From Pelagimonas varians (GTDB taxonomy: Bacteria > Pseudomonadota > Alphaproteobacteria > Rhodobacterales > Rhodobacteraceae), in assembly GCF_003208435.1 (NCBI RefSeq), contig NZ_QKMF01000028.1:1-34894 (forward strand): 34,894 bases of DNA. Direction: 5' to 3'. A program made the translations under genes and the position numbers. Each line of letters begins with the position of its first letter. The stretch's first letter is position 1. Shown one piece after another: positions 15,145 through 26,246 of this stretch. Under the pieces are notes generated by a model. The model saw nothing but the letters and a program-made list of their open reading frames with translations. It ran no database searches and was not told the origin of the DNA.

Positions 15145-15819
15145 TCAGGTTTTAGGCGGAGCTTTGTTTAAACGGGCATGGATGGTATTGAGATGGCGGG
15201 TCATCACGGCGGCCGCCCCTTCCCCATCTCCACTGATGATACCCTCAACGATCGCGCTATGCTCGTGAAAGCTGACATAGTCAGCGGGCGGTCCGCCCGT
15301 GGTGCGCGGCTGCGCCCAAACAACTGATCGCCGCAGCGAATTCAGCGTTTCGAAAAAGTAGAGAAAAAGCTGGTTACGCGTTGCCCGAGCGATCGCGTAA
15401 TGCAGGTTGTTGTCCCAGGCTTCATAGTTCCGCCAATCCAAAGAAGTGCAGCAATTATCGTGGCATAGTCTCATTTGTTCGTGGTCTGATTTCGCGGCGT
15501 TGCGCGCAGCGAGGCGGCAGAGCTCTGGCTCGATGGACAGGCGAACTGCCATCACTTGTTCAGGTTTGATCTGGTCGCGCAAATAAGAAACATCTTGGAG
15601 GTTGAGCACCGGCCGCGCGCCGACAAAAGTGCCCCGCCCGACATGACGCCAAATCCGGCCCTGTGCCTCTAGTTCGGCCAATGCGTGGCGCAGTTGATTG
15701 CGCGTGGTTCCAAACTTTTTGCACAGCTCGCGCTCGGGCGGAAATCTGTCGTTATACCGGTATCCAGCGTTGTCTATCATGTCACGCAGCTGCGCGACCA
15801 AATCTTTGAGTTCTGTCAT
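15145..15819 (-). CDS. GntR-family regulator with FCD domain
   Basis: 224 residues. The winged helix-turn-helix is at about 5-70 (YNDRFPPERELCKKFGTTR, then NQLRHALAELEAQGRIWRHV, GRGTFVG) and the FCD ligand domain at about 85-215, with histidines in WDNNLHYAIARATRNQLF, FHEHSAIVEG and TRHLNTIHARL. The ATG at 15819 lies 9 bp from the operator-like site ACCAAT-N6-ATTGGT (15828-15845), suggesting autoregulation. It is divergent from the FAH-ABC-dehydrogenase operon and upstream of the other FAH gene on its own strand, so it is placed to control both. It is clearly different in sequence from the GntR proteins at 13403 and 22416. Confidence 0.9.
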   Translation of the reverse strand: MTELKDLVAQLRDMIDNAGYRYNDRFPPERELCKKFGTTRNQLRHALAELEAQGRIWRHVGRGTFVGARPVLNLQDVSYLRDQIKPEQVMAVRLSIEPELCRLAARNAAKSDHEQMRLCHDNCCTSLDWRNYEAWDNNLHYAIARATRNQLFLYFFETLNSLRRSVVWAQPRTTGGPPADYVSFHEHSAIVEGIISGDGEGAAAVMTRHLNTIHARLNKAPPKT

Positions 15820-15845: not shown

Positions 15846-15961
15846 TGCTTGATTAATAACCCAATGCGCCGAACACTTCTAATCAAATATCACGTGGTGG
15901 ATCACCGCAGGCACTTAGCCCGATGGGACCAGTGATACCAATAGAATTGGAAGGGGACCAA

Positions 15962-16888
15962 GTGCGACTGGCGACAATTTCTGTAAATAATAAAGCGACT
16001 TGTGTGGCAATCTTGAAGAACGGCCAACGGCTGGACATCGCAAAGGCAGCGCGCAATTTCGACGACGAAGATCTCAGTTCATTGCAAAACGCGACCATGC
16101 TGTCTGTGATCGAAGCTGGCCCTGCCGTGCTGGAGGGTTTGGCCAAACTGATCACCGAAGCCGAGGCTGGAGGCCATGCCGACGCACTGGCACCGGCAGA
16201 TGCGCCATATCTTGCCCCCATCCCTACGGTCCGCAAAAACGTGCTGTGTGTGGGTCGAAATTATGCCGAACATATCGCCGAAGGTGACCGCGCCCAAAAG
16301 CAAACCGTCGGCGTGACCGAATACCCGGTATTCTTTACCAAACCACCCACCACAATCACCCCCCCGGACGGAGATATCCCGCTTTTCCCGACGGTATCTA
16401 CGTCGATTGATTATGAAGTGGAACTGGCGGTCATCATTGGCAAGCCAGGGCGCAATATCTCAAAGGATGACGCGTTTGACCACGTTTTTGGATATAGCGT
16501 GATGAATGACATTTCGGCGCGTGACATTCAGCGCCGTCACGGCGGTCAGAATTTCAAAGGCAAGGCTTTGGATGGGTCCTGCCCGTTCGGTCCCAGCATT
16601 GTCACCGCTGACGAAATCGCCAACCCCCACGGCTTGCAAATCAGTCTGACCGTCAATGGCGACGTGCGTCAGAACGGCAATACCGCGGACATGATCTTCA
16701 ATATCCCCACACTGATCGCCTCCCTCTCCGAGGGTATGACGCTGGAGCCGGGCGACATAATTGCAACCGGCACACCTTCGGGCGTTGGCTACGCGATGGA
16801 ACCGCCCTGCTTTTTGAAAGACGGGGATGTTGTGGTTTGTGACATCGCAAAAATTGGAACGCTCAGAAACACAGTCCGGGAAGTTTAA
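15962..16888 (+). CDS. FAH-superfamily hydrolase/isomerase (2-keto-4-pentenoate hydratase-like)
   Basis: 308 residues from GTG 15962, which has ggaagg 7 nt upstream and gives the usual family opening (M)RLATISVNNKATCVAI; an in-frame ATG at 15923 adds 13 residues without a ribosome-binding site. Two parts are seen: an N-terminal cap region (about 1-90) and the catalytic FAH domain with VLCVGRNYAEHIAEG, YPVFFTKPPTT, metal ligands in DYEVELAVIIG and MNDISARDIQ, and GTPSGVG. This is the larger type of FAH protein, as in 2-hydroxyhepta-2,4-diene-1,7-dioate isomerases and acylpyruvases. It probably acts on an oxo-dicarboxylate made in this pathway. It leads an operon with an ABC transporter and an Ldh2-type dehydrogenase. 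Confidence 0.82.
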   Translation: MRLATISVNNKATCVAILKNGQRLDIAKAARNFDDEDLSSLQNATMLSVIEAGPAVLEGLAKLITEAEAGGHADALAPADAPYLAPIPTVRKNVLCVGRNYAEHIAEGDRAQKQTVGVTEYPVFFTKPPTTITPPDGDIPLFPTVSTSIDYEVELAVIIGKPGRNISKDDAFDHVFGYSVMNDISARDIQRRHGGQNFKGKALDGSCPFGPSIVTADEIANPHGLQISLTVNGDVRQNGNTADMIFNIPTLIASLSEGMTLEPGDIIATGTPSGVGYAMEPPCFLKDGDVVVCDIAKIGTLRNTVREV

Positions 16889-16954
16889 AGAATTTCGCAG
16901 TCAGATGCGAAGTGGGCAAACAGTCAATTGCCCGAATTTGGGAGGAGAACCAAA

Positions 16955-17983
16955 ATGATGAATAGAAGAACATTCACAAAGTCGCTGTTGTCAGCGGTGC
17001 CTGTCGCAGGTGCCTTCGGTAGCGGAGCATTTGCGCAAGGTTTACGTGATATCACGTTCGTTCAGCCAAGCCCGTCAGCCATTAACTCGTTTCCTGTCTT
17101 TGTAGCGATCGGCGAAGGTTATTTTGAGGAGGAGGGCCTCAAAGTGACCGTAGAAGCAATCAACGGTTCGGGTGCCGTTCTTCAGGCCCTTTCGGCTGGC
17201 CAAGCGCAGTTTGGGCGCCCTGGCCCGGGTCCGATGCTCGCGGCTCGGTCGCGCGGCGTGGAAGCTGTGCATATCTACAACGTCGCAGCCCGCAGCAACT
17301 TTGGCATAGCCGTCCAAGAAGGCTCCCCGATCCAGAACGTCGAAGAGCTGCGCGGCAAGGTCATCGGCACAGGTACTGCGGACGGTGCCGAAGTCGGCTT
17401 TGCGCGCAATGTTATGACAAGCGTTGGCATGGTCGAAGGTAAGGACTTCGAATTCCTGACTGTCGGCGACGGCGGCCCTGCAACAGCAGCCTTCTTGAAT
17501 GGCGCAATTGATGCCTATTCCTCTTCGACGGCTGACACCGCGGTGTTGAACCAACGCGGAATGGCTGTGCGTGACATCACTCCTGCGGAGTTTGGCCGTT
17601 TCTTTGGCAATGGCATTGCGACCATGGCCGATACCATCGCTAACGACCGCGAACTGGTCGAAGGTTGGAGCCGCGCCTTTGCACGCGGTCATGCATTTTC
17701 GCTTGATGATGCCAACCGTGAGACTGTGCTGAAACATCTTGCAACCGGTAACCCACAAGAAGGCGAAGACAAAGAGTTCCAATCAGCACTGTTTGATGCG
17801 GTTCGCTCGAAAACCATTCCGACCGATACCAGCAACGGCTACGGTTGGTACCCTGCCGAGGTTTGGCAAGAATGGCATGACTCTCTCTTGGCTGGAGGCG
17901 AGATCCCTGCCCCACTCGATGATCTAAGCGCTGCTTGGACCAATGAGTTTGCCGCAATCGGGAATAAGGCGATTGGCGGATGA
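16955..17983 (+). CDS. ABC transporter substrate-binding protein (SsuA/TauA/NMT1-like)
   Basis: 342 residues from ATG 16955, 9 nt after GGAGG. The N-terminus MMNRRTFTKSLLSAVPVAGA carries a twin-arginine-like RR-T-F motif, a hydrophobic stretch and an FAQG cleavage region, so export by Tat is likely. The mature protein has the NMT1/SsuA-like features PSPSAINSFPVFVAIGEGYF, EEEGLKV, LSAGQAQFG and LRGKVIGTGTADGAEV. This class binds small anions such as sulfonates, nitrate, bicarbonate, taurine or pyrimidine precursors. The stop codon overlaps the ATPase start (ATGA), so translation is coupled. It delivers the substrate that the flanking FAH hydrolase and dehydrogenase presumably break down. Confidence 0.87.
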   Translation: MMNRRTFTKSLLSAVPVAGAFGSGAFAQGLRDITFVQPSPSAINSFPVFVAIGEGYFEEEGLKVTVEAINGSGAVLQALSAGQAQFGRPGPGPMLAARSRGVEAVHIYNVAARSNFGIAVQEGSPIQNVEELRGKVIGTGTADGAEVGFARNVMTSVGMVEGKDFEFLTVGDGGPATAAFLNGAIDAYSSSTADTAVLNQRGMAVRDITPAEFGRFFGNGIATMADTIANDRELVEGWSRAFARGHAFSLDDANRETVLKHLATGNPQEGEDKEFQSALFDAVRSKTIPTDTSNGYGWYPAEVWQEWHDSLLAGGEIPAPLDDLSAAWTNEFAAIGNKAIGG

Positions 17984-18792
17984 ACACTGCAATTGCGCAG
18001 GACAATGCCGGCTCACCCAGTTTGGGTGAGCCGGTTTACGAGCTGTCCAATGTTAGCAAAACCTATGCCCGAAATCTCGTGGTCGCTTTGGACGATGTCA
18101 GCCTGACCCTGCGCAAGGGTAGCTTTACATCGGTCATCGGATCCAGCGGGTGCGGAAAGTCGACACTCCTGAAAATTATGGCAGGGTTGATTCCGCCTAC
18201 ACAAGGCAGGGTTGCCTTGCAGGGGAAACCGGTGACCGGACCCCGCCGTGATATCGGCATGATGTTTCAGCAGGCCACACTTTTCCCATGGAAAACGGCG
18301 GTGGAGAACATCGTGCTGCCCATTGAAATTCGCGACGGTAGAGCAGCCGCAGCCAAAGCCATGGACAAGGCCCATGACCTATTGGATATCGTTGGGCTAA
18401 AGGGATTTGACGGGGTCTACCCCAATGAGCTTTCGGGCGGCATGGCGCAGCGGGCGTCGATCTGCCGGATGCTCATCACGGAACCGGCGGTTCTGTTGCT
18501 GGATGAACCGTTTAGCGCGCTCGATGAGTTGTCACGTGACATGATGAACATGGAGCTCCAAAGAATTTGCCGCGAACAGGACGCTACAGCATTTCTAGTG
18601 ACCCATTCGATTCAAGAGGCCGTGATCTTGTCAGACGAGATCGTGGTGATGAAGCCCCGTCCGGGACGGGTTGCCGAGATTGTCAAAGTTGATCTGCCTC
18701 GACCAAGGACGTTGGACATGATGACGACACCGGAATTCGGTGAAATCGTTGAATACATCCGTGGGCTTCTGGATAAAGGAGAAGACATGTGA
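17980..18792 (+). CDS. ABC transporter ATP-binding protein (SsuB/TauB-like)
   Basis: 270 residues. Walker A GSSGCGKST at 54-62, Q-loop in GMMFQQATLFPWKTA, signature LSGGMAQRASICRML, Walker B AVLLLDEPFSALDE and H-loop VTHSIQEA. The FPWKTA segment is typical of the nitrate/sulfonate/taurine ATPase group. It powers the importer formed with the genes on either side. The ATG overlaps the previous stop by 4 bp, and the next gene's GTG overlaps this stop, so all three are translationally coupled. Confidence 0.92.
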   Translation: MNTAIAQDNAGSPSLGEPVYELSNVSKTYARNLVVALDDVSLTLRKGSFTSVIGSSGCGKSTLLKIMAGLIPPTQGRVALQGKPVTGPRRDIGMMFQQATLFPWKTAVENIVLPIEIRDGRAAAAKAMDKAHDLLDIVGLKGFDGVYPNELSGGMAQRASICRMLITEPAVLLLDEPFSALDELSRDMMNMELQRICREQDATAFLVTHSIQEAVILSDEIVVMKPRPGRVAEIVKVDLPRPRTLDMMTTPEFGEIVEYIRGLLDKGEDM

Positions 18793-19652
18793 GCGACGTT
18801 CAGAACAACGCCCCGATAGAGCGCAATGACACAGAAGATACGGTCTGGGTCCAGGAAATATCGTTTATCGACTCGGTTCCCCGATGGCTCGCGATGAGCT
18901 TTGTCTTTTTTGTGTTTGTCGGAACTTGGCAACTGGTGACATTCTTCGAAATGGTTTCGCCGATTATTCTTCCAACGCCGTGGGAAACTTTACTCGACAT
19001 GATTTTCGTCGGTAAAAACCTATTGACTGGTGGCTATATGCTGGTCGCGCTTTGGATCACGATCCAAGAAGTGATCCTAGGTTTTGCCTTGGCCATTGCC
19101 CTTGGATTTTCCTTGGGGATCTTGGTCGGAGAAACCGCATTTGGCGAAAAGGCCGTGATGCCCTACCTGGTTGCCATCGATACGATGCCAAAGGTGGCAT
19201 TTGCCCCGCTGTTTGTCGCGTGGCTTGGGTTTGGGATCGAATCCAAGGTTGCCTTGGCGGCCTTCATTGCAACCTTTCCAATTGTAGTTGGCACGGCGGC
19301 AGGGCTGCATTCGGCGGATGAAAACGCCCGCATGCTGTTCAAAACGATGGGCGCAACACGGATGCAAACCTTGTTCAAAATGAAACTGCCTACAGGTCTG
19401 CCCCAAATATTTACCGGCCTCAAGATTGGTGCCGTAGGTGTTATGGCTGGTGCGATTACCGGTGAATTCCTTGGCGGTGGCAAAGGCTTCGGAGAATTGA
19501 TCCGTGTCGCAGCTTCGCAGCTCAACACGCCTCGGGTGTTCTCGTTGATCTTATATCTGAGCCTTGTTGGACTGGTGGTCTACTTGTTGGTTATGCACGC
19601 CCAACGCAAAGTGGTGTTCTGGCATGAAGAACGGGTTGGTGCCCATGACTGA
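18789..19652 (+). CDS. ABC transporter permease (SsuC/TauC-like)
   Basis: 287 residues starting at GTG 18789, overlapping the ATPase stop. After a hydrophilic start of about 30 residues come about six membrane helices, and the cytoplasmic coupling motif of binding-protein-dependent permeases is seen as GLHSADENARMLFKTMGATR followed by PTGLPQIFTGLKIG. DTMPKVAFAPLFVAWLGFGI is typical of SsuC/TauC-type permeases. It forms the inner-membrane channel of the importer. Its last codons overlap the start of the next gene by 8 bp. Confidence 0.9.
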   Translation: MSDVQNNAPIERNDTEDTVWVQEISFIDSVPRWLAMSFVFFVFVGTWQLVTFFEMVSPIILPTPWETLLDMIFVGKNLLTGGYMLVALWITIQEVILGFALAIALGFSLGILVGETAFGEKAVMPYLVAIDTMPKVAFAPLFVAWLGFGIESKVALAAFIATFPIVVGTAAGLHSADENARMLFKTMGATRMQTLFKMKLPTGLPQIFTGLKIGAVGVMAGAITGEFLGGGKGFGELIRVAASQLNTPRVFSLILYLSLVGLVVYLLVMHAQRKVVFWHEERVGAHD

Positions 19653-20694
19653 CAATGTGATTGCAGTCGATGCTCTGCGCGGCTTCGTGGCCCGCGCTCT
19701 GACTGCACAAGGTGTGCCGTTATCCGATGCGGCACAAGTCGCCGCTTTGATGGTCGAAGCGGATGTCTATGGGTACAACACCCATGGTGTGTTCCGGTTG
19801 CGCCAGTATTTGGCGCGGCTAAAGGGGGGGGGCTGCAATCCCACCCCTACCCTTTCTGTGGTCCAAGAAACCGTCGCGACCGGATTGATCGATGGCGACA
19901 ACGGGCTTGGCCATCTTGCAATGGCCGCCGCTCGGGATCTGGCGATGGAAAAAGCCCGCAAAGTTGGAATTGGCTGGGTCGGTGTGCGCGGAGGCAACCA
20001 CGCAGGGCCACTTGCTCTTTACGTGCGTCCTCAAGCCGAAGCGGGTTTGTTGGGAATGGCCGCCGCCGTAGGAAGCGCCAACCACGTGCCCCCCTATGGC
20101 GGGTCAGATTTGTTGATCGGGACCAACCCAATTGCCTTCTCGGCACCAGTTGATGGCCCGGACCCCTTCGTCTTTGATATGGCAACAACAGTCGCTGCGA
20201 TGGGCAAGATCAAGACTTTGCTACAGCAAGGCGAACCGATGCCGGAGGGCTGGATGGTTGGCAAGGACGGCAAGCCACTGACCGATCCCAGCCGCAAATC
20301 CGAAGGGTTTTTACTGCCGATTGGGGGCCCAAAAGGGTTTGGACTGTCTGTTGCCATTGGCCTATTGGCTGGCGTTCTGAATGGAGCGGCTTTCGGGTCT
20401 GACGTCGTGGATTTCACCGCCGACACAACATCGCAAACCAACACGGGGCAGTTTGTCATGGCGCTCGACCCGAACGCCTTCGGGCTCGGGGACGACTTCG
20501 GGCAAGAAGTGGCGCGTATCTTTGCAGAAATGCGCGCTTCGCCACCCCTGTCGGGCCATGATCCCGTTCGTTTGCCGGGGGACGGAAAAACCTTATCCGC
20601 GGCCGCCATCCGCAGTAATGGCATCGCGCTAAAGCCTGCTCTGCGGTATGACCTAGACTTGCTCGCGGCGGAATACGACATCGCCAAGCTTTGA
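19645..20694 (+). CDS. Malate/L-lactate dehydrogenase (Ldh2) family NAD(P)-dependent oxidoreductase
   Basis: 349 residues from ATG 19645; longer in-frame starts lie deep in the permease gene. The Ldh2 family fold is shown by YGYNTHGVFRLRQYLARLK (Thr46, His47, Arg51), GWVGVRGGNHAG with the probable catalytic His119, GTNPIAFSAP and GGPKGFGLSVAI. The family includes (R)-sulfolactate dehydrogenase ComC, ureidoglycolate dehydrogenase AllD, malate dehydrogenases and imine reductases, all acting on a 2-hydroxy- or 2-oxo-acid type group. Being the last gene of the FAH-ABC operon, it most likely oxidises the imported compound or an intermediate. A run of nine G residues at 19824-19832 encodes the three glycines after RLK and could slip. 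Confidence 0.87.
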   Translation: MTDNVIAVDALRGFVARALTAQGVPLSDAAQVAALMVEADVYGYNTHGVFRLRQYLARLKGGGCNPTPTLSVVQETVATGLIDGDNGLGHLAMAAARDLAMEKARKVGIGWVGVRGGNHAGPLALYVRPQAEAGLLGMAAAVGSANHVPPYGGSDLLIGTNPIAFSAPVDGPDPFVFDMATTVAAMGKIKTLLQQGEPMPEGWMVGKDGKPLTDPSRKSEGFLLPIGGPKGFGLSVAIGLLAGVLNGAAFGSDVVDFTADTTSQTNTGQFVMALDPNAFGLGDDFGQEVARIFAEMRASPPLSGHDPVRLPGDGKTLSAAAIRSNGIALKPALRYDLDLLAAEYDIAKL

Positions 20695-20707
20695 CAAGGC
20701 TGTCGTT

Positions 20708-20723
20708 CGGTCAACATTGACCG
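20708..20723. repeat. 16-bp inverted repeat before the TauE-like gene
   Basis: CGGTCAA-CA-TTGACCG has 7-bp arms and a 2-nt centre. It lies 14 bp after the dehydrogenase stop and about 110 bp before the exporter start. Its compact, protein-site-like shape suggests an operator rather than a terminator, but no regulator can be assigned; it does not match ACCAAT-N6-ATTGGT. Confidence 0.5.
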
Positions 20724-20759
20724 GCCCGTTCCACATACCTTTTTCAGAGACTTAGCAGC

Positions 20760-20794
20760 GGATCAACGCGCCCGGATATTGGTCGCGTTGATCC
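20760..20794. repeat. 11-bp-arm inverted repeat before the TauE-like gene
   Basis: GGATCAACGCG (20760-20770) and CGCGTTGATCC (20784-20794) are perfect complements around a 13-nt loop. No T tract follows on either strand. As RNA it would form a strong hairpin 40 bp before the exporter start. It could be a terminator of unusual type, an attenuating or processing hairpin, or a DNA site. Confidence 0.6.
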
Positions 20795-20834
20795 ACAATA
20801 CGACGCGCTCGGCCTCTAACAAAGAAAGATCAAA

Positions 20835-21662
20835 GTGACTGACCTAACAACACTACAAATTTCGCTCATTTTGTGCGGCGTCATCTTTGCATCGATCACC
20901 GCTGGTATCTTGGCCGGTTTGCTTGGTGTTGGTGGGGGTATCGTTCTTGTCCCCGTTCTGTTCTGGATTCTATCTTTCACGGATTTCCCGCCCGAGCTTT
21001 CCATGCATATGGCAGTGGCTACATCTCTTGCCACGATCATTTTCACCTCTGTTTCGTCGGCAAGGGCGCATAACGCGCGCGGCGCTGTCGACCGGAATTT
21101 GTTGCGGAGCTGGGCCCCTGGTCTGGTTTTTGGCGCTTTAGCAGGCGGCATATTGGCCCGCTATATCGATGCAAATGGGTTACGGGCCATATTTGGCGGT
21201 ATAGCCGTTTTGGTGGCCATAAATATGCTGCTACCACGCACTCTGGTAATCTCATCCACATTGCCTGAGGGCTGGCTGCCAAATGGGTTTTTATCGGGGG
21301 TTACCGGCCTGTTTTCTGCTCTGATGGGTATCGGAGGAGGCACATTATCCGTCCCTCTCCTAAGTGCCTTTTCAGTCGAAATCCGGCGGGCAGTTGGTAC
21401 TGCTGCAGCCTTTGGCTTTCTCATCGCGGTTCCGGCCGGAGTTGGGTTTGTCATTTCCGGGTGGAACGTGCCGGATCGCCCGCCATTTTCCTTGGGCTAT
21501 ATCAATTATGCGGTCGCAGCTCTCATCTTGCCGTTTACCGTCGGCTTCGCGCCTTTGGGGGCGCGGCTTGCGCATACTCTCGACACAGTCTGGATAAAGC
21601 GAGGGTTCGCACTCTTTTTAATGATCACCGCTGTGAACATGCTCGCAGCATTCACTGCCTAA
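20835..21662 (+). CDS. TauE/SafE family membrane exporter
   Basis: 275 residues from GTG 20835. About eight hydrophobic helices in two similar halves, each with the family's glycine-rich signature: GILAGLLGVGGGIVLVPVLF near the N-terminus and LFSALMGIGGGTLSVPLL in the middle. This is the TauE/SafE (formerly DUF81) family, whose studied members export sulfite, sulfoacetate or related anions. It is 140 bp downstream of the dehydrogenase on the same strand, separated by two inverted repeats, so it may belong to the operon or have its own control. Its presence beside an SsuABC/TauABC-like importer hints at organosulfonate use, but family members with unrelated roles are common. Confidence 0.88.
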   Translation: MTDLTTLQISLILCGVIFASITAGILAGLLGVGGGIVLVPVLFWILSFTDFPPELSMHMAVATSLATIIFTSVSSARAHNARGAVDRNLLRSWAPGLVFGALAGGILARYIDANGLRAIFGGIAVLVAINMLLPRTLVISSTLPEGWLPNGFLSGVTGLFSALMGIGGGTLSVPLLSAFSVEIRRAVGTAAAFGFLIAVPAGVGFVISGWNVPDRPPFSLGYINYAVAALILPFTVGFAPLGARLAHTLDTVWIKRGFALFLMITAVNMLAAFTA

Positions 21663-21709
21663 CGGGGGCTTGGTTTGCTCTCGCGACTGTATGTCTTGGG
21701 CGAACCAAC

Positions 21710-21940
21710 CCTTTGGGACGGGCCGCAAAACGACTGTTACGCAGGCTGTGTGAGCGTCTTGGTTTCTTTCCCAAACTGATTATCACGGACAAGGGACTGA
21801 ACAACCGCATCGATAGCAGCCACAAACTGTTGCTAAAACGGGAAAGGGCCATGCAGGGACATCGATCGCGTGAAAGCCTGCAGTGGTTTGTATCTGCTCA
21901 CACTGCGGTCCGAAATCGTTTTTCCATTCCTGCACGCCGC
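21710..21940 (+). mobile_element. IS6-family transposase remnant with internal deletion
   Basis: The plus strand encodes GRAAKRLLRRLCERLGFFPK-LIITDK and then, directly joined at about 21791, GLNNRIDSSHKLLLKRERAM, QGHRSRESLQWFVSAHTAVR and NRFSI. These are the middle and C-terminal blocks of IS6-family DDE transposases. Intact relatives have a few dozen residues between the ITDK block and the NNRAENSH block, and these are missing. The N-terminal third is absent too. The fragment is dead and lies 48 bp after the exporter gene. Confidence 0.75.
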
Positions 21941-22415
21941 GGCTCAGCAACAGCAAATCCGCCCCCCTCCTTGAAGCTTTGAGTTCTTGGCAGATGCAAC
22001 TCAGGGTGCTTGAAAACTGGCTTTGCAGAAACTCTTCGGCCTTGGACATTTAGCGTGACAACCCCGTTGAATGAGCTCGACCTGTCTGCTGACATAGTCA
22101 CTATGCCCGCTCACGCAAAGCGCGGTTCGACCAGCTTGAAATGCGCATTCTCTAGAGCCATTTCGAGGGAACGCACCACCCGCGCACTCCCAAAGAGATC
22201 GACGCGCAACAGGGGGATTTTGCCCACGGGGCCCTCCACCTCCATCAACAAAGGCCGGATCGATATCCTTCGCAGCGGTAACAAAACGAAGTTGTCAAAG
22301 ATCCGCAAGCGGTCATTCAGGCTGGTGCAATTGGACCGATGTGTTTTGATACCGGAGCTGAAGCGGTTCTCCGAAAATGCAGGAACCACAAGCGGCAGCA
22401 AGCTGGCCCGGATAC
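21941..22415. other. 475-bp stretch without a recognisable gene
   Basis: Both strands carry open stretches (for example minus-strand 22111-22458, which runs into the GntR gene, and plus-strand 22010-22423), but none has a credible start or a recognisable family. They may be worn remnants left by the neighbouring IS6 event. Confidence 0.45.
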
Positions 22416-23078
22416 TTAGGTAGGCAAGCGCAAGTTGTTGATATGTTCCGACAGGCACGCGAGAAGTAAGGGCTTGTTTCGGCTCACCAGCGCGTCGATC
22501 ATTCGATCATGCTGCTCGACCAAAAGTGTTAGGCTGGTGAACTCGATGTCATAGGCACGGGCCAGCTGGAAATGCATATGGTCGAAAGACAGATTGCGAT
22601 ATTGCTCGGTGATAAAGTCATTGCGCGCGAGACCGATCAGGATCAGGTGGAACTCACCATTCAGCCGCCCCCATTCGACCTTTGCGGCCTGCCCGTGCTT
22701 GACTATCTTTCGCATCTTGTCGTTCAGGCGACGCAAAGCCTCGATGTCCGCCTCAGTGGTATTGTCAAAACCCAGATCGACGGTGGACACTTCGAACAGT
22801 TCACGGAACTGCACAAACTGTGCAAACTCCTCGCGCGTGGGCTTGTCAGCGACAAAGTATCCGCGGTTGGGTTCGACCCGCACCAGCCGCGAGGCCAGCA
22901 ATCGGGCCAGCGCCTCTCGTACCGGGATCATGCTGACCCCATGCATATCGGCGATTTTCTTCACGCCGATATGAGCGCCAGGCTCATAGCCACCAGCCAG
23001 GATAGTCTCCCGGATCACCACCACCAGTCGGTCAACAAGGCTGCCTGGTTCAGTCAGCTTTACCCGTATTTCATTCAC
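22416..23078 (-). CDS. GntR-family regulator with FCD domain
   Basis: 220 residues. The winged helix-turn-helix (about 10-75) shows YEPGAHIGVKKIADMHGVSM, IPVREALARLL and VRVEPNRGYFV; the FCD domain (about 80-215) has LNGEFHLILIGLARNDF, LVEQHDRMIDALVSRN and LSEHINNLR. It is the last gene of the minus-strand operon PanB-like, Rieske, GcvT-like, regulator, 21 bp after the GcvT-like stop. Its probable operator is the AT-rich palindrome at 26231-26246 in front of that operon. The ligand is presumably the substrate or an intermediate of the demethylation module. Confidence 0.88.
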   Translation of the reverse strand: MNEIRVKLTEPGSLVDRLVVVIRETILAGGYEPGAHIGVKKIADMHGVSMIPVREALARLLASRLVRVEPNRGYFVADKPTREEFAQFVQFRELFEVSTVDLGFDNTTEADIEALRRLNDKMRKIVKHGQAAKVEWGRLNGEFHLILIGLARNDFITEQYRNLSFDHMHFQLARAYDIEFTSLTLLVEQHDRMIDALVSRNKPLLLACLSEHINNLRLPT

Positions 23079-23099
23079 GTTGTTTCACCTAGCCCCACC

Positions 23100-24203
23100 T
23101 CATACAAATGGCAGATCACAGATCGTGCCAGGAAGTGGCTCTCCGTTTCTGACAACCTCGACCCTATCCCCGATTTTCACTGTCCGCGAGACCAGAACGA
23201 AACCGATCACCGCGTGCAACCGCGGTGACCAGCCGCCATTGGTCATGCTGCCGACTTTTTGCCCGTCGACCAGTACGTCGCACCATGTGGCGTGACCAGC
23301 CTGTGTCGACCAGTCATCCAGCCTAACGCCAAGCTGATGTCGCTTCGGCCCGTCGGCGTGGATACGGCGCAAAGCCTTGATGCCGACCACATCGTCGGCG
23401 AGATCCAGATTTACGTATTGCCCAAGGCGCACCTCAAACGGGTTGGTCTCGTCATCGGTGTCACCACCATATGACAGCAGCCCGCTTTCGATCCGTTCCA
23501 CCGGGTTGGGGTTGCCGGGGCCGATGCCAAAGCGTTGCCCCGCCTCGCGTATGATATTCCACAGATCGACGCCGCGGCTGCCATCCATAAGGTACAATTC
23601 AAACCCGCCCTGCTTGGAAAAGCCTGAGCGGGCGATCTTCATCGGGATACCGTTGATCTCGGCCTCGGCGAACCAGAAAAACCTGATATCACGCACCCAA
23701 TCCCCGAAGATCGACGCGACAACATCCTCGGCCTTTGGCCCTTGTACCGCCATCGGGGACACGTCCGGTTCGCAGATATCAACGTCGAACCCGCGCTCAG
23801 CTGCGATGGCACGCGCCCACATCAGCATGTTGTTGTCGGCGATCGACATCCAGTACAGATCATCGGCAAGCTTCAGCACGACTGGGTCGTTGATCAACAC
23901 ACCGCGATGATCACAAATTGGCACATACTTGCCTTGGTTGACCGCGCATTTTGACAGGTCTCGCAGCGACAACACCTGCGTCAGGCGGGCCGCATCCGAT
24001 CCGCTGATTTGCACCTGTCGCTGCACTGCGACATCCCACATCGCAACACCATGCATCAGCCGGTCATATTCGGCCATCGGGTCACCATAGGACACTGGCA
24101 TCAGCATCCGGTTATATGGGGAAAAGGCCACAACGCCCTCTTGAACGGTGGCGTCGTAATAGGGCGATAGGCGCAGACGGGTGTTGGGTCCAATTTCTGC
24201 CAT
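23100..24203 (-). CDS. GcvT/DmdA-like folate-binding aminomethyltransferase family protein
   Basis: 367 residues from ATG 24203, 8 nt after AAGGT; a TTG two codons earlier is possible but poorer. The whole length matches the glycine-cleavage T-protein fold, closest by eye to the DmdA/LigM-type methyltransferases: VWDVS-like VAMWDVAVQRQVQISG, LINDPVVLKLADDLYWMSIA, EPDVSPMAVQGPKAEDVVAS, ARSGFSKQGGFELYL and NPVERIESGLLSYGGDTDD. Such proteins move a methyl group from a sulfonium, ether or amine to tetrahydrofolate. The neighbours are a Rieske oxygenase and a PanB-like enzyme, so a one-carbon role is likely. It is not called DmdA: the usual dmdA neighbours are absent and the N-terminus and C-terminus differ. 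A GC-rich hairpin (24223-24235) lies in the 78-bp gap to the Rieske gene. Confidence 0.82.
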   Translation of the reverse strand: MAEIGPNTRLRLSPYYDATVQEGVVAFSPYNRMLMPVSYGDPMAEYDRLMHGVAMWDVAVQRQVQISGSDAARLTQVLSLRDLSKCAVNQGKYVPICDHRGVLINDPVVLKLADDLYWMSIADNNMLMWARAIAAERGFDVDICEPDVSPMAVQGPKAEDVVASIFGDWVRDIRFFWFAEAEINGIPMKIARSGFSKQGGFELYLMDGSRGVDLWNIIREAGQRFGIGPGNPNPVERIESGLLSYGGDTDDETNPFEVRLGQYVNLDLADDVVGIKALRRIHADGPKRHQLGVRLDDWSTQAGHATWCDVLVDGQKVGSMTNGGWSPRLHAVIGFVLVSRTVKIGDRVEVVRNGEPLPGTICDLPFV

Positions 24204-24281
24204 TTGCAAAGACCTTGTTTCGGGGGCCGCGCCCCTTGGGGTTGGTATTTTGGGACCATGGAAGCGCCCCGCCTCAAGGGG

Positions 24282-25355
24282 TCAGGCGCTGCGTTCCGCG
24301 TCCAGCTTGCGTTTGAGAATCTGTCGTACCCGCACGCCAGCGCCGTCGGCACCAAGGTTGATTTCGGGGAAATCCAATCCACGCGGGTCCTCTGACACCA
24401 GCCTCTGGATCTTCTGCAACAAATCCTTGTCCTCGTTGAACGCGTCGAGGATGTTGGTCTTGGTCTGATCCAGCACCTCATCACTCACATCTGGCACGTC
24501 GAAGGCCGCCGCAAAGAAGTAATGCGTCTCGCCGCGTTTGCCGGGCGTCACGATATGGGCACCGCGCACAAGGTAGTCGATCCGCTCACCCGGAGCCGCC
24601 GCGATATCATGTACATTCCAGTCCGAGAACGACACTGCCAATGACGGCATGCGCCCTTCTTGTTCACGCTTGACAACTTTCCCGTCCGGGAACCCGAAAC
24701 CGGCGCAAAACAGCGGCGATAGCGGCGAGGGTTCGAAATCTTGTCTGTAAACAATGGACTCCCCTTCCATCGACACGCTGGCCGGATTTTCCCAGTCACC
24801 TTGTTTGAACGTCTTGGCATGCAAAAAGGCGATGTGGGTTAGGTCCAACACGTTTTCACGAATCAACACCCAGTTGGCATCGACCTCCATGTAGGCGGTG
24901 ACAACCGACCAGTCCGGATTGACCTGGTAGCCCATGTCCACCGGAGCATGGTCAATCTTATCCGGGTCCCCCATCCAGATCCAAAGGAACCGACCAGCCT
25001 GACGCAAAGGATAGCTTTGGACCTTGGCCGAGGGTGGAATGGTGCTTTGTGTTGGCACTCTCGTGCATACGCCGTCAGCGCCGAATTGCATACCGTGGTA
25101 GGGGCAGACCAGCTGATCATCGATGACACGCCCCTCGGACAACGGTGCCCAGCGATGCGGGCAGCGATTGTCCAGCGCCACCGGCGTGCCGTCCTTCTTG
25201 CGGTACATCACGACCGGCTTTTCCAAAAGCCAGCGCGCCATCGGCCTGTCGGTCACCTCATCCACATGGGCGGCACACCACCACATGTTGCGCGGATAGT
25301 TGTCATCCAACATCCCGTTCGGGATCAGCTGGGCACCTTTGGTCAGTTCGGTCAT
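24282..25355 (-). CDS. Rieske non-heme iron oxygenase, VanA-like
   Basis: 357 residues. The Rieske [2Fe-2S] domain has Cys65-x-His67 (CPHRWAPLSEG) and Cys84-x2-His87 (CPYHGMQF). The catalytic domain has the mononuclear-iron motif NVLDLTHIAFLH with Asp171, His174 and His179. Length and layout match single-component oxygenase subunits of the vanillate O-demethylase (VanA) class, which remove O- or N-methyl groups as formaldehyde or hydroxylate the substrate. A VanB-like reductase is not present in the window, so electrons must come from elsewhere. The start overlaps the PanB-like stop by 4 bp (ATGA), so the two are translationally coupled. Confidence 0.88.
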   Translation of the reverse strand: MTELTKGAQLIPNGMLDDNYPRNMWWCAAHVDEVTDRPMARWLLEKPVVMYRKKDGTPVALDNRCPHRWAPLSEGRVIDDQLVCPYHGMQFGADGVCTRVPTQSTIPPSAKVQSYPLRQAGRFLWIWMGDPDKIDHAPVDMGYQVNPDWSVVTAYMEVDANWVLIRENVLDLTHIAFLHAKTFKQGDWENPASVSMEGESIVYRQDFEPSPLSPLFCAGFGFPDGKVVKREQEGRMPSLAVSFSDWNVHDIAAAPGERIDYLVRGAHIVTPGKRGETHYFFAAAFDVPDVSDEVLDQTKTNILDAFNEDKDLLQKIQRLVSEDPRGLDFPEINLGADGAGVRVRQILKRKLDAERSA

Positions 25356-26206
25356 TCACCGTCCTCCTTGAGAATGGCAGCAAGCCTTTCGGCTTCTTCC
25401 GGTTTCATCTGATAGGAATGGTCTTCATCTGGAAACGCACCGGCCCGAACATCCCCAGCACAATCCGAGAACGCCTGCACCGCGATATCGGCCATATTGG
25501 CGTAACGTTTGGCGAATTTGGGTTTGAACATGTCGAAGGCTCCGAGCAAATCATAACCATTCAGCATCTGTGCAGTTCCAGCGGCACCGGCTCCGATGGA
25601 AAACGTAAAGATGTCCACGGCCTCATCCACGGCCTTGCTGACCTCGTAGGGCATCGCCTCCATCTCCAGCCCAATGGCGCCGGCCTCTTCAATGGCACGG
25701 GCATTGTCGATGATTTCAAGCGCCGCTTCCGCCGTACGGCCCTGCATCTTGAAACCACCAAATTTGTGCACGTAATGCGGCAACAGCCCGACATGGCTCA
25801 TCACCGGAACCCCGGCATCCGCCACGGCCTTGATGATATCAAACCTCTCGCGCCCGCCCTGCAGCTTTACTGCATCGCAGCCACTTTCCTTCATCAAGCG
25901 TACAGCATTTGTGACGGCCATCTCTGGCGTGGCGTAAGACCCGTAGGGCATCGACACCAAGCACAGTGTGTTCGGTGCGCCTCGACGCACGGCACGCGTG
26001 TGCTCGATCATGTGCTCGACCGTCATCGCCAGCGTGTTTTCATGGCCGTAAAGCGTCATGCCCAGACTGTCGCCAACACCGACGATGTCCACTCCGGCAC
26101 GCTCGGCCCAAGAGGCCGTCAGCACTTCGCCGACAGCCACCATAACCAGCCGTTCGCCGGTCCGTTTTTTTTCCACCAATTCGGGAATTGTCAGTTTCGC
26201 GCGCAT
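25352..26206 (-). CDS. PanB-like hydroxymethyltransferase homologue with altered metal site
   Basis: 284 residues from ATG 26206, preceded by GGGAGGGT. It has the PanB (3-methyl-2-oxobutanoate hydroxymethyltransferase) barrel throughout: VGVGDSLGMTLYGHENTLAM (Asp46), AVRRGAPNTL, SYATPEMAV, AVKLQGGRE (Lys114), SHVGLLPHYVHKFGGFKMQG, GLEMEAMP, SIGAGAAG and KFAKRYANM. True PanB transfers a hydroxymethyl group from 5,10-methylene-tetrahydrofolate in pantothenate synthesis. Compared with remembered E. coli PanB, the second Mg2+ ligand Asp84 is replaced by Ser85 (LCLVSMPYGSYAT instead of LLLADLPFMAYAT), and Glu114 by Gln116. With no panC nearby, but a Rieske oxygenase and a GcvT-like gene in the operon, a catabolic aldol or retro-aldol role is more likely than pantothenate synthesis. 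Confidence 0.85.
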   Translation of the reverse strand: MRAKLTIPELVEKKRTGERLVMVAVGEVLTASWAERAGVDIVGVGDSLGMTLYGHENTLAMTVEHMIEHTRAVRRGAPNTLCLVSMPYGSYATPEMAVTNAVRLMKESGCDAVKLQGGRERFDIIKAVADAGVPVMSHVGLLPHYVHKFGGFKMQGRTAEAALEIIDNARAIEEAGAIGLEMEAMPYEVSKAVDEAVDIFTFSIGAGAAGTAQMLNGYDLLGAFDMFKPKFAKRYANMADIAVQAFSDCAGDVRAGAFPDEDHSYQMKPEEAERLAAILKEDGE

Positions 26207-26230
26207 TTGCACCCTCCCAGCCAGAATCAT

Positions 26231-26246
26231 ATATTATATATAATAT
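26231..26246. promoter_or_regulatory. 16-bp AT palindrome, candidate operator of the PanB-like operon
   Basis: ATATTATATATAATAT is perfectly self-complementary and lies 25 bp upstream of the PanB-like start (26206), just beyond its ribosome-binding site. This position, between the divergent PanB-like operon and the aldo/keto reductase, suits a GntR-type repressor, probably the one encoded at 22416-23078. An AT-only palindrome can also be part of a promoter, so confidence is moderate. Confidence 0.55.

Follow-up and report, generated by a model that had tools for sequence, protein, structure and literature searches.

Contig C28 of Pelagimonas varians (hereafter, the window), a complete contig of 34,894 bases from a 4.93-Mb, 56-contig genome, carries four minus-strand genes in the order PanB-like protein, VanA_C-type Rieske oxygenase, DmdA-like GcvT protein and GntR regulator. 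The PanB-like protein (284 amino acids; 25352..26206) scored 290 bits on PF02548, the Rieske non-heme iron oxygenase of the VanA_C type (24282..25355) 78 bits on PF00355 and 127 bits on PF19112, the DmdA-like GcvT-family protein (23100..24203) 134 bits on PF01571 and 40 bits on PF08669, and the GntR/FCD-family regulator, presumed to be a local repressor (22416..23078), 48 bits on PF00392 and 63 bits on PF07729; all four exceeded the Pfam cut-offs of their families. Although the PanB-like frame opens at 26230, a start at ATG 26206 was favored because the protein then begins (MRAKLT...) like that of Shimia and GGGAGG precedes the ATG. The stop of the PanB-like gene overlaps the Rieske start by 4 bp (25352-25355), 78 bp separate the Rieske gene from the GcvT gene when the latter starts at ATG 24203 (TTG 24209 is the alternative), and the gap between the GcvT and GntR genes is 21 bp. 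A perfect 16-bp palindrome, ATATTATATATAATAT, lies at 26231..26246; it is the presumed GntR operator and has one site in the genome at ≤1 mismatch. The preliminary description of this DNA had proposed a tight operon of these families with a dedicated regulator and a 5′ palindrome, and the spacing, the families and the palindrome were all confirmed. Together with the recurrence of the gene set in other genera and in another phylum (see below), these results indicate that the four-gene operon is real, conserved and locally regulated.

The PanB-like protein passed the curated PanB models as well as PF02548 (cut-off 28.7), scoring 282.1 on NF001452 (cut-off 272) and 258.3 on TIGR00222 (cut-off 207.55). 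An IQ-TREE analysis of 55 proteins, comprising 32 PanB-like proteins (24 of subgroup 1, to which the window belongs, and 8 of subgroup 2) and 23 canonical PanB proteins (9 plus 14 second copies), split the two sets with 100/100 support; the join between clade and canonical proteins is where long branches meet, as a tool warning noted, and is perhaps unsure. At E. coli PanB positions D45, D84, K112, E114, H136 and E181 (numbering taken from the 1m3u alignment), the canonical proteins read D-D-K-E-H-E, whereas the clade read D-(S/A/C)-K-Q-(H, or Q in 2/32)-E. Thus, D84 was replaced by S, A or C and E114 by Q in 32/32 aligned clade members and 0/23 canonical proteins, and Q142, kept in 23/23 canonical proteins, was His in 32/32 clade members. 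The equivalents of D45, K112 and E181 were retained in all 32 and that of H136 in 30/32. We take D45, D84 and E114 to be the metal-site acids of PanB. Since two of these are replaced throughout while D45, K112, E181 and H136 are kept, the site appears to be modified rather than dead, and ordinary 5,10-methylene-tetrahydrofolate (THF)-dependent ketopantoate chemistry is not to be assumed.

In the window protein, S93 and Q124 occupy the D84 and E114 positions (numbering of the 292-residue frame); the clade has lost further canonical invariants at window residues 32, 34, 51, 152 and 224. Across the 32 clade members, Y25 was also changed to G, A, P or L and V214 to N or L, and a Glu was added; clade-invariant residues include W41, R82, H152 and E189 of the window protein. 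The 32-row count leaves aside the disrupted L099 and the cut L148, both of which belong to the 26 subgroup-1 loci considered below; the pieces of these two, and L149, displayed clade residues wherever they were covered. L099 (genome G109) carries its PanB-like gene in two pieces with an internal TGA, and its Rieske match is likewise in two pieces, reflecting either decay or a sequencing fault. An AlphaFold model of the window protein had an intact barrel (pLDDT 85), with E189 and E191 (model residues 181 and 183) on one strand, two residues apart. The best PDB folds were KPHMTs (TM about 0.8), followed by 2-methylisocitrate lyase and 2,3-dimethylmalate lyase. The clade resembles PanB (ketopantoate hydroxymethyltransferase, KPHMT; PF02548; 1m3u and 3vav) in fold, in the retained residues and in an identity of 32-39% in structural alignments, but differs from it in its altered D84, E114, Q142 and Y25 positions, its separate place in the tree and its adjoining oxygenases.

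The PanB-like gene is not the only panB of the genome: a canonical copy (351 bits) with residues D-D-K-E-H-E lies elsewhere. A canonical panB was confirmed by residues in 19/29 genomes, namely the own genome, G394, G395, G396 and 15/24 others; G999, which has a second PF02548 match whose residues were not compared, is counted outside this figure. A further second copy, L176, also had canonical residues.

The Rieske protein combines both domains of a VanA-type oxygenase, Rieske and VanA_C, with the CxH..CxxH and D..H....H motifs of this type. Its CPH..CPYH cluster and DLTH..FLH motifs were invariant in 19 aligned sequences, the window included. The best PDB match was the dicamba O-demethylase DdmC (3gb4), which shares these domains and motifs but is distant (152 bits) and differs from the operon in its partner genes. 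The four operon genes include no VanB-kind reductase (the genome beyond the operon was not searched for VanB), and no small subunit, ferredoxin or reductase genes of the MsmABCD type lie beside the Rieske gene.

The operon GcvT scored 376 bits on NF009133, under the DmdA cut-off of 410, whereas the DmdA of the same genome, located elsewhere (C3:280800), scored 673 bits, which makes a role of the operon in the use of dimethylsulfoniopropionate (DMSP) unlikely. DmdAs over the cut-off were found in 7/13 genomes searched. The best PDB match of the operon GcvT was 3tfh (289 bits), which we take to be DmdA and with which it shares a two-domain make-up, but since its identity to the seven over-cut-off DmdAs is 40-43%, it is a paralogue rather than DmdA. 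Additional sub-cut-off DmdA-like paralogues occur in the same genomes (L200-L203, L205-L207, L209, L211, L213 and L218), 40-51% identical to the operon GcvT.

The gene set is not unique to one genome. A genome-contig scan with the PanB-like protein yielded 263 relatives, of which the 80 best loci were retained. These comprise eight top loci with 67-93% identity (Shimia, two Ruegeria, Litoreibacter, and metagenome-assembled genomes (MAGs) of two Rhodobacteraceae and two Acidimicrobiales), the other 72 being 38-41% identical and largely from Prevotella-type genomes. PanB-like and Rieske genes were present together in 8/8 of these top loci, GcvT in 6/8 (not in the two Ruegeria) and GntR in 5/8, so that the set recurs in other Rhodobacteraceae genera and, in a different order, in Acidimicrobiales, another phylum. 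The Rieske protein matched at E ≤ 1e-60 in 9/394 genomes of the family, the own genome included, with a PanB-like gene adjoining in 8/9. At E ≤ 1e-72, the PanB-like protein matched in 14/385 genomes of the class, the own genome included, and in 6/297 genomes from the order to which L010, an Acidimicrobiales MAG, belongs. At the same threshold, a phylum search matched 3/398 genomes, the third of which (G1136) carries a canonical PanB next to a frame that looked panC-like by eye; the clade is thus present in 2/398, again including the own genome. The system is therefore rare, with a patchy distribution. In the tree, the sequences from Acidimicrobiales fall within the alphaproteobacterial ones, suggesting transfer between phyla. 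In comparison with Shimia, dN/dS was 0.042/1.175 (~0.036) for the PanB-like gene, 0.049/1.302 (~0.038) for the Rieske gene and 0.098/1.379 (~0.071) for the GcvT gene, ratios indicative of strong purifying selection on these three genes.

We then compared partner genes at 35 loci, 26 of subgroup 1 and 9 of subgroup 2, using 250 bits as the GcvT threshold; L006, on the same contig as L093, was merged with the latter, and L098, with a Rieske gene but without a PanB-like gene, lies outside the 35. An O2-using oxygenase of the Rieske, PhyH or FA_hydroxylase (fatty-acid hydroxylase) type was found near the PanB-like gene in 30/35 loci. In subgroup 1, a Rieske gene lay within 8 kb in 20/26 loci; the other partners in these 26 loci were GcvT (14), MarR (11), GntR (7, the window included), HpcH/HpaI lyase (4), related PhyH (4) and DMGDH-like genes with a GcvT domain (4); L133 has PhyH without Rieske, and in L135 another PhyH type adjoins the PanB-like gene. 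Counting 14 DmdA-like proteins and 3 more that are DMGDH-like, a GcvT-domain protein was near 17/26 of these loci. The nine subgroup-2 loci carried GntR (9), PhyH (7), TRAP genes (7), FA_hydroxylase-type genes (7) and DUF6166 (6), with PhyH or the FA_hydroxylase type in 8/9; the locus on a plasmid of M. nodulans has DUF6166, sterol desaturase, GntR and an MFS transporter. As a control, the queries and thresholds were applied unchanged to 19 canonical panB neighborhoods of 10-18 kb from clade-carrying genomes. Rieske, PhyH, FA_hydroxylase, GcvT, MarR, TRAP and DUF6166 genes were present in 0/19 of them, with two sub-threshold matches (PhyH, 55 bits; GcvT, 71 bits). Together, these results show that the PanB-like protein and an O2-using oxygenase form the constant pair, with GcvT as an optional partner (14/26 and 0/9 loci in the two subgroups) rather than the core member it had been thought to be.

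Two recurrent arrangements were seen in these neighborhoods. L136-L143 and L149 share a cluster of PanB-like, DUF6166, TRAP or MFS transporter, GntR, PhyH and FA_hydroxylase-type genes; in a literature search at the level of results, DUF6166 was not found together with the other cluster terms. A DMGDH-like flavoprotein with GcvT domains lies near the PanB-like gene in L130, L131, L140, L147 and L005 (Pfam was run on L131 only).

Palindromes were compared across genomes as well. ATATTATATATAATAT had, at ≤1 mismatch, one site in the own genome (G000), one in Shimia (G396) and none in G004, the third genome scanned, and its reversed control had 0 matches in all three. In L003, L004, L005 and L092, the DNA upstream of panB holds palindromes of 14-20 bp, with one mismatch permitted; no such palindrome was found there in three loci from Ruegeria (L006, L007 and L093), though a GntR gene is present. 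The gene set is accompanied by two regulator types with two operator types: an AT-rich palindrome in the GntR layout (the window, L003, L004, L005 and L092) and GTTCCA..TGGAAC-like palindromes in loci with a MarR gene (L008, L094-L097, L132 and L133). In six genomes with the MarR layout, the site ahead of panB was identical to TGTTCCAANTGGAACA in G176, G049 and G200, had one mismatch to it in G999 and did not match it in G164 and G756. When the genomes were scanned with TGTTCCAANTGGAACA at ≤1 mismatch, the operon site stood alone in G176 and G049 and was joined by another in G200 and G999; G164 had off-operon sites only, and G756 had none. Since the reversed control matched once in G049 and twice in G164, lone off-operon sites carry little meaning; the second site of G200 falls within a frame resembling nusB by eye. 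An operator-guided search for a co-regulated transporter found little.

We tentatively favor, at less than even confidence, the reading of a catabolic operon, spread by horizontal transfer and under local control, in which the PanB-like protein carries out a reverse aldol step on the product of methyl oxidation by the oxygenase. The Rieske enzyme, served by a reductase encoded elsewhere, would hydroxylate or oxidatively demethylate a methyl-bearing organic acid, presumably a 2-oxo or hydroxy acid, a role that a PhyH Fe/2-oxoglutarate dioxygenase or an FA_hydroxylase-type enzyme may take at other loci. The PanB-like protein, its active site presumably reshaped by the loss of two metal-site acids and the gain of the invariant E189 and H152, would then act on the resulting 2-oxo acid, taking off the new hydroxymethyl carbon as formaldehyde or 5,10-methylene-THF. 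Where present, the DmdA-like GcvT may transfer the one-carbon unit to THF, and GntR would repress the operon at the palindrome until substrate or product appears. The most economical proposal is that a methyl-bearing acid is first oxygenated and that the altered PanB then works on the product. Speaking for this reading are the constant pairing with an oxygenase, absent from the control neighborhoods, the separate clade with its modified site and intact barrel, and the GcvT-domain proteins near 17/26 subgroup-1 loci. KPHMT is described in PMC7611260 as adding 2-oxo acids to formaldehyde, and the reversed PanB reaction is named in PMC7073904 as a possible one-carbon donor to THF. Also in its favor, the nearest solved relatives of one subgroup-2 TRAP binding protein include, after 2hzk (137 bits; titled sorbitol/mannitol SmoM and presumably a keto-acid binder), the ketoacid-binding 7ug8 (123 bits). 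We are more doubtful of the further proposal that the clade represents a novel kind of enzyme, namely a reverse hydroxymethyltransferase derived from PanB whose metal site has been rebuilt or moved. Together with a Rieske, PhyH or FA_hydroxylase-type oxygenase, it would act on a branched 2-oxo acid by oxidative C-demethylation and pass the methyl carbon to folate or release it as formaldehyde.

Several observations weigh against the favored reading. No oxygenase match was found at L130, L131, L134 and L144 (the last a 3.9-kb contig), and 7/26 subgroup-1 loci (L092-L097 and L099) came from the Rieske search, so that they hold a Rieske gene by the way they were selected; when the count is confined to the 18 subgroup-1 loci from PanB searches, Rieske was present in 12/18 and Rieske or PhyH in 14/18. 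GcvT was missing in 12/26 subgroup-1 loci and undetected in 9/9 subgroup-2 loci, making a connection to folate less firm, and the DMGDH-like genes, found in 2/19 control panB neighborhoods, give no sign of linkage to the clade. VanA-type oxygenases more often demethylate O- or N-methyl groups than hydroxylate C-methyl groups. The TRAP link is a single binding protein, from subgroup 2 rather than the subgroup of the window. In 8/24 genomes and in Ruegeria marina (G397), a second full-length PF02548 match was not found, and a pantothenate role may therefore be retained there. Lastly, with two metal-site acids lost, enolate chemistry of the usual kind is disfavored, barring a novel mode of metal binding. 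PanB requires a metal for enol formation and has highly conserved active-site residues, according to a review (PMC7770189).

A possible, though less probable, alternative is a formaldehyde-releasing demethylation, in which the Rieske enzyme would remove an O-, N- or S-methyl group or split a small sulfonate, and the PanB-like protein and GcvT would do no more than trap that formaldehyde or methyl group, using folate or a 2-oxo acid as the acceptor. The closeness of the Rieske protein to DdmC (152 bits) among solved structures is consistent with this, as are methanesulfonate monooxygenase genes of Filomicrobium with GcvT and PanB nearby, as described in PMC4433239. The altered metal-site residues, however, disfavor a plain formaldehyde-condensing PanB, and GcvT is optional across loci. 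The window also holds a TauE-type gene (20835-21662) with an adjoining NMT1-type ABC transporter, but these genes lie on the strand opposite to the operon, and the TauE gene matched 0 other loci at E 1e-8, a distant TauE-family gene occurring in L148 only. We set the TauE and sulfonate-type ABC genes aside.

It is rather unlikely that the PanB-like protein works outside one-carbon chemistry as a C-C lyase, isomerase or enolizing enzyme on another oxo acid, in the manner of the isocitrate lyase/phosphoenolpyruvate mutase-type barrel lyases. The loss of two metal-site acids, the change of Q142 to His, the altered Y25 and V214 and the added Glu in the 32 members would suit such a role, and 2-methylisocitrate and 2,3-dimethylmalate lyases follow the KPHMTs among the closest folds; an HpcH/HpaI lyase gene is also present at 4/26 loci, the L132 copy being RipC-like (257 bits, under the cut-off of 375). 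Nevertheless, sequence and fold are nearest to KPHMT (290 bits; TM about 0.8), the K112 and E181 equivalents are retained, and subgroup 1 often has GcvT partners. That the operon holds a spare pantothenate gene or serves to demethylate DMSP or vanillate, as the family names, the TIGR00222 panB score (258 bits over 207.55) and the closest GcvT structure (3tfh) might suggest, is very improbable because a canonical panB (351 bits) and a separate true DmdA (673 bits) lie elsewhere in the genome. These candidates were rejected on that ground and because the operon PanB copy has altered residues and the four operon genes include no VanB-kind reductase. Homarine was a further candidate that we considered.

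The rest of the window holds further genes. An IS240/IS6-type transposase remnant (DDE_Tnp_IS240, 34 bits; 21680-21958, plus strand), possibly the trace of an insertion, sits in the stretch that separates the operon from the TauE gene. A second catabolic run (15923-21662, plus strand) consists of FAA hydrolase, NMT1-type binding protein, ABC ATPase, permease, Ldh2-type dehydrogenase and TauE-type exporter genes; a GntR/FCD gene at 15145-15819 runs divergently from it. Distant from the operon, at 183-1664 on the minus strand, a ferric-reductase-like flavoprotein with an NAD-binding domain adjoins a P-type cation ATPase gene; it counts as a reductase-like gene within the scanned set of window proteins. 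No tRNA was found within the 34,894 bases, and PADLOC, run on two proteins, gave no match.

A literature search, judged mostly at the level of results, found no description of this PanB-like clade or operon. The view that no described pathway has this combination holds to that extent, but annotation-level precedent exists: a 2015 methanesulfonate paper describes GcvT- and PanB-annotated genes near a Rieske-type monooxygenase and ties them loosely to methylotrophic reactions (PMC4433239). That Filomicrobium region (KM879220) combines the annotations with a Rieske-type monooxygenase operon in one 20.3-kb segment; its oxygenase is, unlike ours, an MsmABCD enzyme with beta subunit, ferredoxin and reductase, its GcvT ORF spans 996 bp, and its PanB is likened by annotation only (PMC4433239). 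The initial idea of a folate one-carbon module stands as far as a conserved, regulated operon is concerned, but not in having a normal PanB or GcvT at its core.

The presence of PanB is commonly read as a sign that vitamin B5 is made. Since the window protein passes curated PanB models, and the clade member on the M. nodulans plasmid is annotated panB yet carries altered residues, genome-based models would probably assign the wrong reaction to such proteins. The clear residue signature of the clade makes its chemistry directly testable. The gene cluster points to an undescribed breakdown route for some methyl-bearing acid, which, if the favored reading is true, would be a folate- or formaldehyde-linked removal of carbon-bound methyls in marine Rhodobacteraceae and Acidimicrobiales.

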